A stretch of DNA of 64,000 bases. It comes from Methyloligella halotolerans. GTDB taxonomy: Bacteria > Pseudomonadota > Alphaproteobacteria > Rhizobiales > Methyloligellaceae. Positions 2,255-5,778 of the stretch are shown one piece after another (position 1 is the first letter of the stretch; each line of letters starts with the position of its first letter). The notes beneath the pieces were generated by a model. That model was not told the origin of the DNA. It worked only from the letters and a program-made list of their open reading frames with translations, and searched no databases. The stretch is taken from the NCBI RefSeq assembly GCF_001708935.1, contig NZ_MASI01000005.1:1-64000 (forward strand), read 5' to 3'. The translations under genes and the position numbers were made by a program.

Positions 2255-2767
2255 CTAATCCACCTTTTCGATGGCGATCCTGATCTGCGCCATCTCCGAA
2301 GCGCTGACCTGCAAGGTGACGGGCGCCGCCTCCAAGCTGAACCGCACGCTCTTGCGCAAGCCGGGACAATCCGCCGAGCCGGTATGATCGGTCGACGGAA
2401 CCAGCGCACCGTTCTGCACCAGATCGATCCAGGCTGCGCCCGAAAGGCTGACCTGATAGGTCCCGCCCCGGGCGGGCGTGAAGCGGACGACCCCACCCTT
2501 AATTGACGCGTCCTCTTTGTCCCTCCCCCGCTCCGGCGGCCGGGCGAAATCGACATCGTCCTCGGCCACGAGCGCCAGCACGAAAGCGGCTGCCTCACCG
2601 CCCTCCAGGGTGCCGCCGGACCGCGCCACGGGAAGATCGTCGGCTTTCAGCCGCTTTTGCGTCTCCGCAAGCGACCATTTGAAATTCTCGCATCCCGGCG
2701 CACAGGCCTTCGCCACCGGAATGCTGAAGATCAGCGCGCAAAGCGCGAGTGCAACGATCCGCCCCAT
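2255..2767 (-). CDS. small secreted protein coupled to TonB receptor
   Basis: This 170-residue protein has a signal peptide (residues 1-21, cleavage expected after AKA). The mature part begins with Cys and contains a second short Cys motif (CAPGCENF). The C-terminal half reads like a small beta-rich domain (GTYQVSLSGAAWIDL, then CPGLRKSVRFSL). Its ATG overlaps the receptor stop by one base (TGATGG), so translation is coupled and a role in the same uptake function is likely. Similar small proteins beside TonB receptors are sometimes labelled homogentisate dioxygenase in databases; nothing in this sequence supports that enzyme. I infer a periplasmic accessory or ligand-binding protein; the ligand is unknown. 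Confidence 0.8.
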   Translation of the reverse strand: MGRIVALALCALIFSIPVAKACAPGCENFKWSLAETQKRLKADDLPVARSGGTLEGGEAAAFVLALVAEDDVDFARPPERGRDKEDASIKGGVVRFTPARGGTYQVSLSGAAWIDLVQNGALVPSTDHTGSADCPGLRKSVRFSLEAAPVTLQVSASEMAQIRIAIEKVD

Positions 2768-5049
2768 CAGAACCGCGCCCGCATCTTGGCGAAGAAGGCA
2801 CGGCCCGCTTCCGGGAAGCCATCCTCCAGCTCGTAATTGTCATCGAGCAGGTTGGTCGCGCCCAAGGCCAGGGTGATCTCGTCGCTCGCCTGATATTCCG
2901 CCTCCAGATTCACCAGCGCGTAGGAGCCGAGCTTGCGGTAGTTCGGCGTGCGCGGCTGAGGTCCGGAGAGCAGCGAGCTCCCACTGGACGTGATCAGGCT
3001 GTAACGGTCGCTCGCCAGCTCGATATTGGGGGTGAGCGTCCACCGCTCCGTCGCCGCCCAGGAGAGATAGATGAACCCCTCATGCTGGGGCGTACCCTCG
3101 GGCCGCGGCCCGATCATCTCGTAATCGTAGTCGCGGTCCAGATAGGTGTAATTGCCGCCCACCGTCACCGTGGGGCTGACCTTCCAGTCGACCGAGAATT
3201 CGACTCCCTTATAGGTCCCGTCGACATTCTGGTTCTGGATGGCGCTCGAACCCCGGTCAGAGGTGAAGACCGGCTGGATGGAGTTTGAAAGGTCCGAATA
3301 GAAGAGCGCGCCGGAAACCTGAACCGAGCTGAACAACGTATCGCTCGCGCCGACTTCGTAGTTCACCGCCCTCTCCGGACCGAGATCGGGATTCGGCACG
3401 ATCTGCCCGAACCGGGTCGAGAAACGTTCGAACATGGTGGGAAACCGCGTGCGGTCGGAAATGGTCGCGTGCAGCTTGCCGGTGTCGGAGTAGCTGTAGA
3501 CCGCACCGCCCTGATAATCCCAGGCGCCCGTGGTGCTGGTCGGATAGTTGTAGACCCGGTCCGGCCCGCCGCTGGGCGGCTCGCCGTAATCCTCCGCGCT
3601 GACCACCTCGAGCTGGTTGAAAGCGACGCCGCCAATGAAGTCGAGGCGGCTCGTGGCATGGAAGGTATTCTCCGCCGCGAAAGACCATGTCTCCTCGACA
3701 TTCTCCTGAACCGGCTCGACGAAGTCGGCTCCGCCCGGCGCATCGTGGGAATATTCCTGATGCTGATCCCGCCGGTAATGCACCGCCGTCTTGAAGCTGT
3801 TCTGAGGGATGAGGTCGGTGCCGAACTCGATCGAGCCGCCTTCCGCCTCATCGTTGTAGTAGCTGTCGAAGCTGCGGAAGCTCTCCTGCTGCCGGAAGGC
3901 GGGGTCGTCGTAGGACGAGAGCAGATTATCGAACGTGTTGTAGTACGCGTTGGTCTTCACATAGGAGGCCGAGCCCAGCTTGGTCTTGGAGAGCCAGGAC
4001 AGACTCTGGGTGTCCCAGTAGAGCCAGTCCCAGAAGCGCGGGCCCTGCACCACCTGCCCCGCCACATGGAGCGGCGCGCTCTTCGCCCCCTGCTGGTTCG
4101 TGTAGTTGATGCTGTATTCGTCGGTCGCGTTGGGCGTGATGCCGACCTTGGCGTTGATGCGGTAATCCTCCGCATTGGAGTGGCCGCGCACGCCGCCATT
4201 CTCGTTCTCGATCAAGATCGGCGTGAAGTCGTCCGACAGGGTCCAGTGGTCCTGATCGCGCAGCGTCCCGCTGACCTGCGCGTAGTAATGCTTCTGCCTT
4301 GTGCCGCCATAGGCGTAGCCGGTCCAGGAATTGACCGTGTCGAAATCGCCGCCGAACTCGACACCGGCCCGTCCCTCTAGCTCCAGCGCCTTCGTGGGCT
4401 TGCGCGACACCATGTTGATGGCGCCGCCCATGCCGCCCGGTCCGTTCAGCACCGAGACATAGCCTTTCTGCACCTGAATCTCGGAAAGATCCGGCGTCAG
4501 GAAGCGGTTGAAATCAAGCCGATTATCGGCCGGCAGATAGATGCGAACGCCGTCGACATAGAGCGGCACCCGGTAACGGTTGAAGCCGCGTACATAGATG
4601 TCCCGTTCGTTCCGGCTGCCGCCCGTATTGTCTGTGGTCACACCAGGAACGATGCTCAGCGCCTGATCCAGCGTATTCTTGTTGTAGGTCCACATCGTCT
4701 CATTGGTGATCGTGCTGCCGCCGATCGAATCGAGCTGTCCCAGGGTGAACACACCGACGGCCCCTGCCCCGCTGCCGGTCACCGCGGGCGGAAGCACGAC
4801 CGCCTCTTGGGCCTGCTCTTGGACCGCTTGAGGCGCGGACGCCGCCACCGCGTGACGCACCGGCGCGGGCGCCACAGGCGCGCTCCTCTCCGGCTGATCG
4901 CCGGTCACGACGATCGGCGGCAACACCGTCGCCTCGTCGGCCGTCACGTCGCCGCCGGATGTGAGCTCCTGATCCTCCGCCCAAGCCGCTGCTGGAATCG
5001 ACGCAGCCACCATCGCAGCCGCAAAGGCTGCCCCTTTCACGTTCCCCAT
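2767..5049 (-). CDS. TonB-dependent outer-membrane receptor, probably ModE-regulated
   Basis: This 760-residue protein has a signal peptide ending at AAAWA, a Pro/Ala-rich N-terminal spacer with LPPIVVTG resembling a TonB box, a plug domain (DIYVRGFNRYRVPLYVDGVR, then GPGGMGGAINMVSRKP) and a 22-strand-type barrel ending in Phe. The open frame runs 85 codons further upstream, but the ATG at 5049 is preceded by GGGGGA and starts a proper signal peptide. The family imports scarce metals or metal chelates, cobalamin and siderophores with energy from TonB. The divergent ModE-type regulator and the Mo-box-like palindromes in the shared promoter suggest a molybdate, tungstate or metal-chelate ligand. 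This is inference; sequence alone does not give the substrate. Confidence 0.9.
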   Translation of the reverse strand: MGNVKGAAFAAAMVAASIPAAAWAEDQELTSGGDVTADEATVLPPIVVTGDQPERSAPVAPAPVRHAVAASAPQAVQEQAQEAVVLPPAVTGSGAGAVGVFTLGQLDSIGGSTITNETMWTYNKNTLDQALSIVPGVTTDNTGGSRNERDIYVRGFNRYRVPLYVDGVRIYLPADNRLDFNRFLTPDLSEIQVQKGYVSVLNGPGGMGGAINMVSRKPTKALELEGRAGVEFGGDFDTVNSWTGYAYGGTRQKHYYAQVSGTLRDQDHWTLSDDFTPILIENENGGVRGHSNAEDYRINAKVGITPNATDEYSINYTNQQGAKSAPLHVAGQVVQGPRFWDWLYWDTQSLSWLSKTKLGSASYVKTNAYYNTFDNLLSSYDDPAFRQQESFRSFDSYYNDEAEGGSIEFGTDLIPQNSFKTAVHYRRDQHQEYSHDAPGGADFVEPVQENVEETWSFAAENTFHATSRLDFIGGVAFNQLEVVSAEDYGEPPSGGPDRVYNYPTSTTGAWDYQGGAVYSYSDTGKLHATISDRTRFPTMFERFSTRFGQIVPNPDLGPERAVNYEVGASDTLFSSVQVSGALFYSDLSNSIQPVFTSDRGSSAIQNQNVDGTYKGVEFSVDWKVSPTVTVGGNYTYLDRDYDYEMIGPRPEGTPQHEGFIYLSWAATERWTLTPNIELASDRYSLITSSGSSLLSGPQPRTPNYRKLGSYALVNLEAEYQASDEITLALGATNLLDDNYELEDGFPEAGRAFFAKMRARF

Positions 5050-5082
5050 TAAATCCCCCGACGTCTTCCTGTCACATGCTAT

Positions 5083-5106
5083 CGTTATATCTCTATGGAT
5101 ATTACG
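5083..5106. promoter_or_regulatory. Mo-box-like palindrome 1 (candidate ModE site)
   Basis: The half sites CGTTATATC and GATATTACG are separated by six bases. The published ModE element is CGnTATATA-N6-TATATAnCG, so most positions agree. The site lies 34 bases upstream of the TonB receptor ATG, where it could block or activate that promoter. AT-rich DNA of this kind stands out in a GC-rich window. Confidence 0.55.
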
Positions 5107-5112
5107 GAGGAA

Positions 5113-5136
5113 CGCTATATACCGACTGATACAGCG
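5113..5136. promoter_or_regulatory. Mo-box-like palindrome 2 (candidate ModE site)
   Basis: The half sites CGCTATATA and GATACAGCG are separated by exactly six bases. The left half is a perfect match to the ModE half-site and the right half matches seven of nine positions. It lies 30 bases from palindrome 1, about three helical turns, so both would be on the same DNA face. It is 36 bases upstream of the ModE-like start, suggesting autoregulation. Confidence 0.6.
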
Positions 5137-5172
5137 AGTCCAGAGGAAGGAGCGAGCAAAAAGGACGACGGG

Positions 5173-5640
5173 ATGCACCCCTGCTATAGTGCCGCCGCTT
5201 TGGGAGTTTGGATGGGGCGGAGCAGCGTGAGCGGGAAGCAGGGAGAATCGGCAGACACGGGCCAGCCGAGAACGGCGTCGGCAGGCACTGCGAAGTCTGG
5301 CCATGCGAAAGGCCAGAAGCCCTTTCCGCGCTTGCGCATTCCCATCGCAGACGGGCTCGTGCTCGGGCCGGGGAAGATCGAGCTTCTGGAAGCCATCGGT
5401 CGCACCGGATCGATCTCGGCCGGCGGACGCGAGATGGGCATGTCCTACCGGCGCGCCTGGCTGTTGGTCGATGCCCTGAACCGCATGTTCGCCAAGCCGC
5501 TCATCCTCACCGCCACCGGCGGCACGCGAGGCGGCGGTGCGCAGGTGACGGACGAAGGCCGCGCCGTCGTCTCAGCCTATCGCCGTGCCGAAGAGCGCAC
5601 CAAGCCGTCATCCAGGAAGAACTGGCCGGATTGCCACTGA
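5173..5640 (+). CDS. ModE-type winged-helix regulator without molybdate domain
   Basis: Residues about 53-135 form the LysR-like winged helix of ModE: KIELLEAIGRTGSISAGGRE, then MSYRRAWLLVDALNRMF, GGTRGGGAQVT and a closing AYRRAEE. The C-terminal molbindin domains of E. coli ModE are absent, as in the single-domain ModE proteins of many alphaproteobacteria. I chose ATG 5173 because AAGGA precedes it by seven bases; ATG 5212 is also possible, and a longer frame from 5095 would overlap the operators. The last residues (after EERTK) look unnatural. Adding one base near 5604 (AAGCC to AAGGCC) gives a tail AVIQEELAGL that ends at 5657 and resembles the family, so a one-base deletion is likely. It probably controls the divergent receptor and itself. 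Confidence 0.8.
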   Translation: MHPCYSAAALGVWMGRSSVSGKQGESADTGQPRTASAGTAKSGHAKGQKPFPRLRIPIADGLVLGPGKIELLEAIGRTGSISAGGREMGMSYRRAWLLVDALNRMFAKPLILTATGGTRGGGAQVTDEGRAVVSAYRRAEERTKPSSRKNWPDCH

Positions 5641-5778
5641 AATCCCGGAAGAGATAGACGTGCGGATCTCCTGAACACCCATCTGCGGACGACTCTCTCC
5701 CTCTCGCCCGACGACCGCTCGACTAGACTATTGCGTGTAACCGCGGCGCCTTCTACCGTCACATCCGGGGGTACGGGT

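Follow-up and report, generated by a model that had tools for sequence, protein, structure and literature searches.

The DNA analysed here, hereafter the window, is a stretch of 64,000 nucleotides of Methyloligella halotolerans (contig NZ_MASI01000005.1, positions 1 to 64,000), and contains a candidate locus for outer-membrane uptake of molybdenum or tungsten. A TonB-dependent receptor gene and a gene for a small secreted protein lie on the minus strand, a gene for a ModE-type regulator lies divergently on the plus strand, and two ModE-type boxes sit between the receptor and regulator genes:

2255..2767, minus strand: small secreted protein gene (170 amino acids), overlapping the receptor stop (TGATGG)
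2767..5049, minus strand: TonB-dependent receptor gene (760 amino acids; ATG at 5049; PF07715 and PF00593)
5083..5106, no strand assigned: ModE-type box 1, CGTTATAT-N8-ATATTACG, 33 bp before the receptor ATG, 1 mismatch to CGNTATAT-N8-ATATANCG
5113..5136, no strand assigned: ModE-type box 2, CGCTATAT-N8-ATACAGCG, 1 mismatch to CGNTATAT-N8-ATATANCG
5173..5640, plus strand: single-domain ModE-type regulator gene (TIGR00637, 80.4 bits; PDB 2ijl; longest open reading frame, or ORF, from 5095)

This gene set had been proposed by an earlier sequence-only reading of the window, and the receptor, the small ORF overlapping it at TGATGG and the divergent single-domain helix-turn-helix protein of ModE type were all recovered.

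The receptor and the regulator

The receptor belongs to the TonB-dependent receptors, with a plug (PF07715) and a large beta-barrel domain (PF00593), and transport powered by TonB and ExbBD is predicted for it. A signal peptide is apparent by eye at its N-terminus, as is, by eye only, a PPIVV-type motif close by. The folds nearest to its AlphaFold model (pLDDT 73) include OprC, Fiu, PhuR and PqqU, with OprC, the nearest, sharing ~17% identity with it. Among curated subfamilies, the best matches were general siderophore and haem receptors, all under their cut-offs. As no curated subfamily passes its cut-off, assignment as an iron or cobalamin receptor was set aside.

The regulator is the sole ModE match in this assembly. 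It scores 80.4 bits against TIGR00637 (E 8e-23), under the curated cut-off of 98.5, which is reached in 17 of 397 genomes of the order, and it matches PDB 2ijl, deposited as a molybdenum-binding transcriptional repressor (E 9e-27). No match to the C-terminal TOBE/Mop domains was found in its 181-residue ORF; by sequence it is of the single-domain ModE type and not a classical ModE. A ModE with two TOBE stretches does occur near another receptor (locus L105). The contig of the window has, at another place, a gene for a 69-residue TOBE/Mop-like protein (44.7 bits, Mop cut-off 55); no box-like site with at most three mismatches was found in its 3 kb. The longest modE ORF begins at 5095, and since this start falls inside box 1, the ATG at 5173 is the likelier one.

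ModE-type boxes in the genome and before related receptors

Boxes were scored with the palindrome CGnTATAT-N8-ATATAnCG, modelled on the E. coli form of the ModE box. The sequence-only reading had described two palindromes 30 bases apart. Both are present, with starts 30 bp apart and a gap of 6 bp, but the form that it gave them, CGnTATATA-N6-TATATAnCG, proved slightly too strict (3 and 2 mismatches by eye).

The assembly (3.19 Mb in 26 contigs) is 90% complete, so that genes missing from it prove little. It contains three sites with at most one mismatch, namely both window boxes and one on contig C10, while a reversed-pattern control yields none. At three mismatches the pattern is unspecific (38 sites versus 27 for the control), and weak matches alone therefore mean little. 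Four more sites with at most two mismatches are present in the genome, none of them less than 2 kb from any of the 10 other TonB-receptor matches; at eight of these ten loci we found no site with at most two mismatches and one with three (some of the stretches may miss the promoter). The modA gene of this genome has a three-mismatch box abutting its longest ORF. Around the two strong FecCD loci (four matches in all), no site with at most three mismatches was found in the 4 kb covered, and no ModE-linked FecCD importer was found in this genome. The site on contig C10 (73481-73504) is a perfect ModE-type box located about 200 bp before a Porin_O_P gene and about 4 kb from a molybdopterin oxidoreductase gene, and contig C1 carries another Porin_O_P gene after modA; the ModE regulon may extend to oxyanion porins.

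Of the 397 genomes of the order, 22 have a receptor match at E ≤ 1e-60, each a single one; this genome is counted among them. Our comparative set comprises 91 receptor loci after removal of duplicates (11 of 21 loci from genomes of the order repeated named records): the window, 10 further genomes, and 80 loci from named genomes (the best 80 of 336 in a receptor-profile scan). All loci were fetched by receptor sequence and not by box, and the related species among them are not independent. With the count anchored on the plug domain, 87 of the 91 loci were scored; the other four (L076, L089, L116 and L125) had short upstream sequence or no anchor, and a separate scan found sites in L076, L116 and L125 and none in L089.

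A box precedes the receptor in 37 of the 87 loci at one mismatch or fewer, in 54 at two or fewer and in 71 at three or fewer, versus 13, 29 and 50 of 2013 control windows taken from the same loci. Conservation of the palindromes in orthologous loci, which the sequence-only reading had wanted checked, is thus found well above the controls. Anchoring instead on the start of the longest ORF, a variant that misses boxes inside over-long ORFs, gave 50 of 88 loci at two mismatches or fewer (controls, 31 of 2391). Some of the control matches are probably real boxes of neighbouring genes, because sites centre near the ORF starts of FecB-like binding proteins (4-64 bp away, four loci) and of another binding protein (58 and 94 bp away, two loci). 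A box-like site some 2.8 kb upstream in each of two loci (L145 and L149) was excluded from the counts. In the sister species, Methyloligella sp. GL2, a perfect palindrome lies 34 bp before the receptor and is the only site of that genome with at most one mismatch. ModE-type boxes were also seen near ORFs for a LysR-type regulator and a TauE/TSUP-like permease (identified by eye) in loci of related genomes (L152, L155, L161 and L164).

In a quick tree, 90 receptors form one clade (SH-aLRT 100) relative to seven other TonB receptors of this genome. Boxes with at most two mismatches occur in its Rhizobiales, Azospirillum, sphingomonad and gammaproteobacterial branches, and in most of the larger branches; in the window's own 22-row branch they are present in 16 of the 20 labelled rows. 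Four loci labelled Planctomycetota, Verrucomicrobiota, Marinimicrobia and Acidobacteria (L089, L140, L142 and L144) fall among proteobacterial receptors and are perhaps mis-binned or transferred.

This distribution bears on the idea that the boxes serve modE only, through autoregulation, and that the receptor is an accidental neighbour. The window boxes do precede modE as well; however, boxes stand before receptors whose flanks show no modE, for example in most Hyphomicrobium and several Mesorhizobium loci, and on that ground we set this idea aside as very improbable.

Gene neighbourhoods and the small secreted protein

The divergent modE-receptor-small gene arrangement is repeated in Methyloligella sp. 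GL2, where the modE ORF begins 92 bp past the box. More generally, of the 22 genomes of the order that carry the receptor, at least 7 have modE adjoining the receptor gene (three divergent, three downstream and one on the opposite strand). A ModE match (E ≤ 6e-12) was found in all 22, versus about 231 of the 397 genomes at E ≤ 1e-9 (a hand count; hypergeometric p 4e-6, kinship ignored). Within the 91 loci, ModE is encoded in the flanks of 25 and Mop in those of 19, in 14 of which the mop gene directly follows the receptor gene (one Mop was tested against TIGR00638 and scored 82.8 bits, cut-off 55). ATP-binding cassette (ABC) importer genes of FecB/FecC type are present in 11 loci and a TrmO-like gene in 8. 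Some 3 kb downstream from its receptor gene, Azospirillum sp. TSH64 encodes a ModA-like protein (TIGR01256, 92.4 bits versus a cut-off of 62.5), and the centre of a box-like site is 54 bp away from the start of that gene.

Other genes were seen in these neighbourhoods. In Hyphomicrobium sp. LHD-15 (L177 and L168), a one-mismatch box precedes an 803-residue ORF whose N-terminus is receptor-like by eye, and whose first 415 residues have no Pfam match; it is followed by a FecB-like ORF (by eye), with an adjoining FecB-FecC-FecE-Mop-TrmO-like run. In 11 of the 91 loci, L086 among them, the receptor has a di-haem CcP/MauG-like gene nearby; these genes form one cluster, and L091 has such a gene from a separate cluster. 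Pfam confirms the assignment in L086 and L091. A methanobactin-like MbnP/MbnH pair was considered and rejected: the one CcP/MauG-like gene scanned scores 167.6 bits against an MbnH cut-off of 362.85, Pfam gives no match for the small protein, and in the window the ORF list includes no CcP/MauG-like gene next to the small gene.

Homologues of the small secreted protein are encoded in 48 of the 91 loci (window included): 32 downstream of the receptor, 15 divergently upstream and one elsewhere. No Pfam family matches the protein of the window, and 15 members of the group gave four weak single-member matches (best E 0.021). Its AlphaFold model is a beta-sandwich (pLDDT 88) for which Foldseek returned loose likeness only, to collagen-binding, CUB, toxin receptor-binding and carbohydrate-binding domains; neither Pfam nor this model places it in a solute-binding-protein family. 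The rhizobial and sphingomonad forms constitute one family (hhalign E 5e-23).

In two loci, of Povalibacter uvarum (L123) and of a gammaproteobacterial metagenome-assembled genome (L117), the small domain is fused to ModA within one ORF of 415 and 412 residues, respectively, ModA coming first. The ModA part scores 207 bits in L123 and 192 bits in L117 (TIGR01256, cut-off 62.5), and the small-domain part 103 and 94 bits. Both fusion genes lie downstream of the receptor, with modE in between, and a one-mismatch box precedes the receptor. Judged by these sequences, the small protein is a partner domain of ModA and not a ModA. A search for shared synteny, as the sequence-only reading had suggested, has thus returned modE, mop and a ModA fusion.

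Away from the receptor, the small domain is present in 25 of 398 genomes of a phylum-wide sample (this genome included). In the 26 small-domain loci outside this genome, examined with flanks of at most 1.5 kb, Mop or ModA is adjacent in eight, a receptor match is present in one and a ModE match in one; the short flanks of most show none of the four. The gene order is mop-small-modA in two genomes (L182 and L186), and in a third locus (L185) the small gene comes right behind a TupA-like gene and overlaps its end; the only NCBIfam match of that gene is TupA (246 bits, under the cut-off of 400). No receptor match was found in the 1.5-kb flanks of these three loci. Finally, the longest small ORF of L187 contains, in its 5' part, a one-mismatch box that probably lies before the true start.

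These neighbours also bear on whether the receptor imports an iron-siderophore, cobalamin, pyrroloquinoline quinone (PQQ) or some other ligand and merely falls within a wider ModE regulon. The subfamily matches to general siderophore and haem receptors, all below cut-offs, point in that direction, as do ModE-type boxes before other genes, such as those for LysR-type regulators (by eye). With Mop, ModE and ModA-like genes recurring around the receptor, and with its co-encoded small domain fused to ModA in two loci, we regard such a ligand as improbable.

A proposed route for molybdenum across the outer membrane

We consider it quite probable that the locus is the outer-membrane arm of molybdenum (perhaps tungsten) acquisition, controlled by ModE, powered by TonB and equipped with a periplasmic accessory protein. 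The sequence-only reading had proposed a ModE-linked TonB uptake locus for these metals, and gains support from the conserved boxes, the modE and mop neighbours and the ModA fusion, all of them directly visible in the sequences. Two separate lines are involved, as the regulatory link rests on the boxes and the molybdenum link on the neighbours and the fusion. From them we infer binding and repression by ModE, the substrate, energisation by TonB and a hand-over by the small protein.

The route would operate as follows. When molybdenum is sufficient, ModE would occupy both boxes and turn down the receptor/small-protein operon, perhaps repressing its own gene from the same boxes. When molybdenum is short, the receptor would be made, and molybdate or a molybdate chelate would be drawn into the periplasm, where the small beta-sandwich protein may help to deliver the oxyanion to ModA or TupA, a part that might fall to a FecBCD-type binding protein in other species. 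An ABC importer would then carry the oxyanion into the cytoplasm. In this genome the FecCD loci have no box, ModA and ModB score above their cut-offs, and ModABC is the more likely inner-membrane step.

The substrate may be the free oxyanion, or the receptor might take only a molybdenum chelate, bound for example to a catecholate molybdophore, along a siderophore-like path under ModE. FecBCD/BtuCD-type importer genes near the receptor in some species, the catecholate receptors among its nearest folds and the usual ligands of such receptors would favour a chelate. In other loci, however, the receptor is paired with a ModA-like gene or a ModA fusion, and ModA binds the free oxyanion; ModA and TupA as partners would thus favour the latter. 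Moreover, FecBCD-type importers do not decide between the two, because MolBC-A of Haemophilus influenzae, presumably a FecCD/BtuCD-like importer of the class found near some of these receptors, carries plain molybdate. This transport is described in PMC4031551, where a figure legend starts with molybdate already in the periplasm. Unlike in the loci with FecB/FecC-type genes, the receptor of the window has no such importer beside it. Overall, a chelate-only receptor is possible, but we do not favour it.

Several observations weigh against a molybdenum receptor under ModE control. Plain molybdate is small and thought to pass porins, so that an energised receptor is not obviously needed, and the nearest solved folds of the receptor serve copper, catecholate-iron, haem and PQQ. 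No box with at most three mismatches was found in 16 of the 87 receptor loci, and weight-matrix scores are below 15 in 16 loci (nearly the same set), including Azospirillum brasilense, Caulobacter, Phenylobacterium and Blastochloris. In the tree, a 15-row subclade (Rhodomicrobium, part of Hyphomicrobium, Blastochloris and others) has eight rows with no box, six with a three-mismatch box and one with two mismatches or fewer, and the Caulobacter-Phenylobacterium and A. brasilense pairs have none. Because this branch and these two pairs are mostly weak or boxless, the box, though widespread, is weak or lost in parts of the receptor clade. In addition, the fetched flanks show no modE in 66 of the 91 loci and no small gene in 43. 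Eight of the 91 have neither a box (at most three mismatches) nor ModE, Mop, FecB/C or the small gene; this number leaves aside L076 and L116, two of the four loci outside the anchored box count, which would make ten.

The crossing of the outer membrane by molybdenum is usually left to porins. We recognised no ModE-controlled TonB receptor in a literature search (RegPrecise and most subscription papers were outside its scope), and TonB-dependent outer-membrane import of molybdenum or tungsten under ModE control is seemingly unreported. This genome shares a ModE-type regulator, a ModE-type box and ModA/ModB with the ModE-ModABC uptake of E. coli type, but goes beyond it with a TonB receptor in the outer membrane and a new periplasmic protein, and the ORF of its regulator lacks the TOBE sensor domain. 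Metal-specific TonB receptors such as OprC for copper, the nearest fold, and MnoT for manganese, as presented in PMC8602904, are made when one metal is scarce, as the present one would be; here, however, the regulator is of molybdenum type, and identity to OprC is ~17%. Outer-membrane steps for molybdate have some precedent, because PMC8602904 also describes molybdate acquisition in Pseudomonas aeruginosa through a type VI secretion system, ModA and IcmP, where such a step likewise involves ModA. A predicted ModE regulon of Geobacter lists several transport systems, according to PMC2700814.

On balance, we lean towards a widespread, ModE-type-controlled TonB route for molybdate, tungstate or their chelates, in which a new periplasmic family, sometimes fused to ModA, would take the oxyanion over from the receptor and shuttle it to ModA or TupA. 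If this is true, an energised, molybdenum-regulated receptor adds a step to molybdenum nutrition, and a testable function is provided for a receptor group and for an undescribed periplasmic family across alphaproteobacteria and some gammaproteobacteria. Molybdenum can limit microbial nitrogen assimilation (PMC3440940).

Next to this locus, positions 102-2162 of the window hold a large autotransporter-like ORF (by eye; 686 amino acids, with a glycine-rich passenger), which is convergent with the adjoining small-protein gene.

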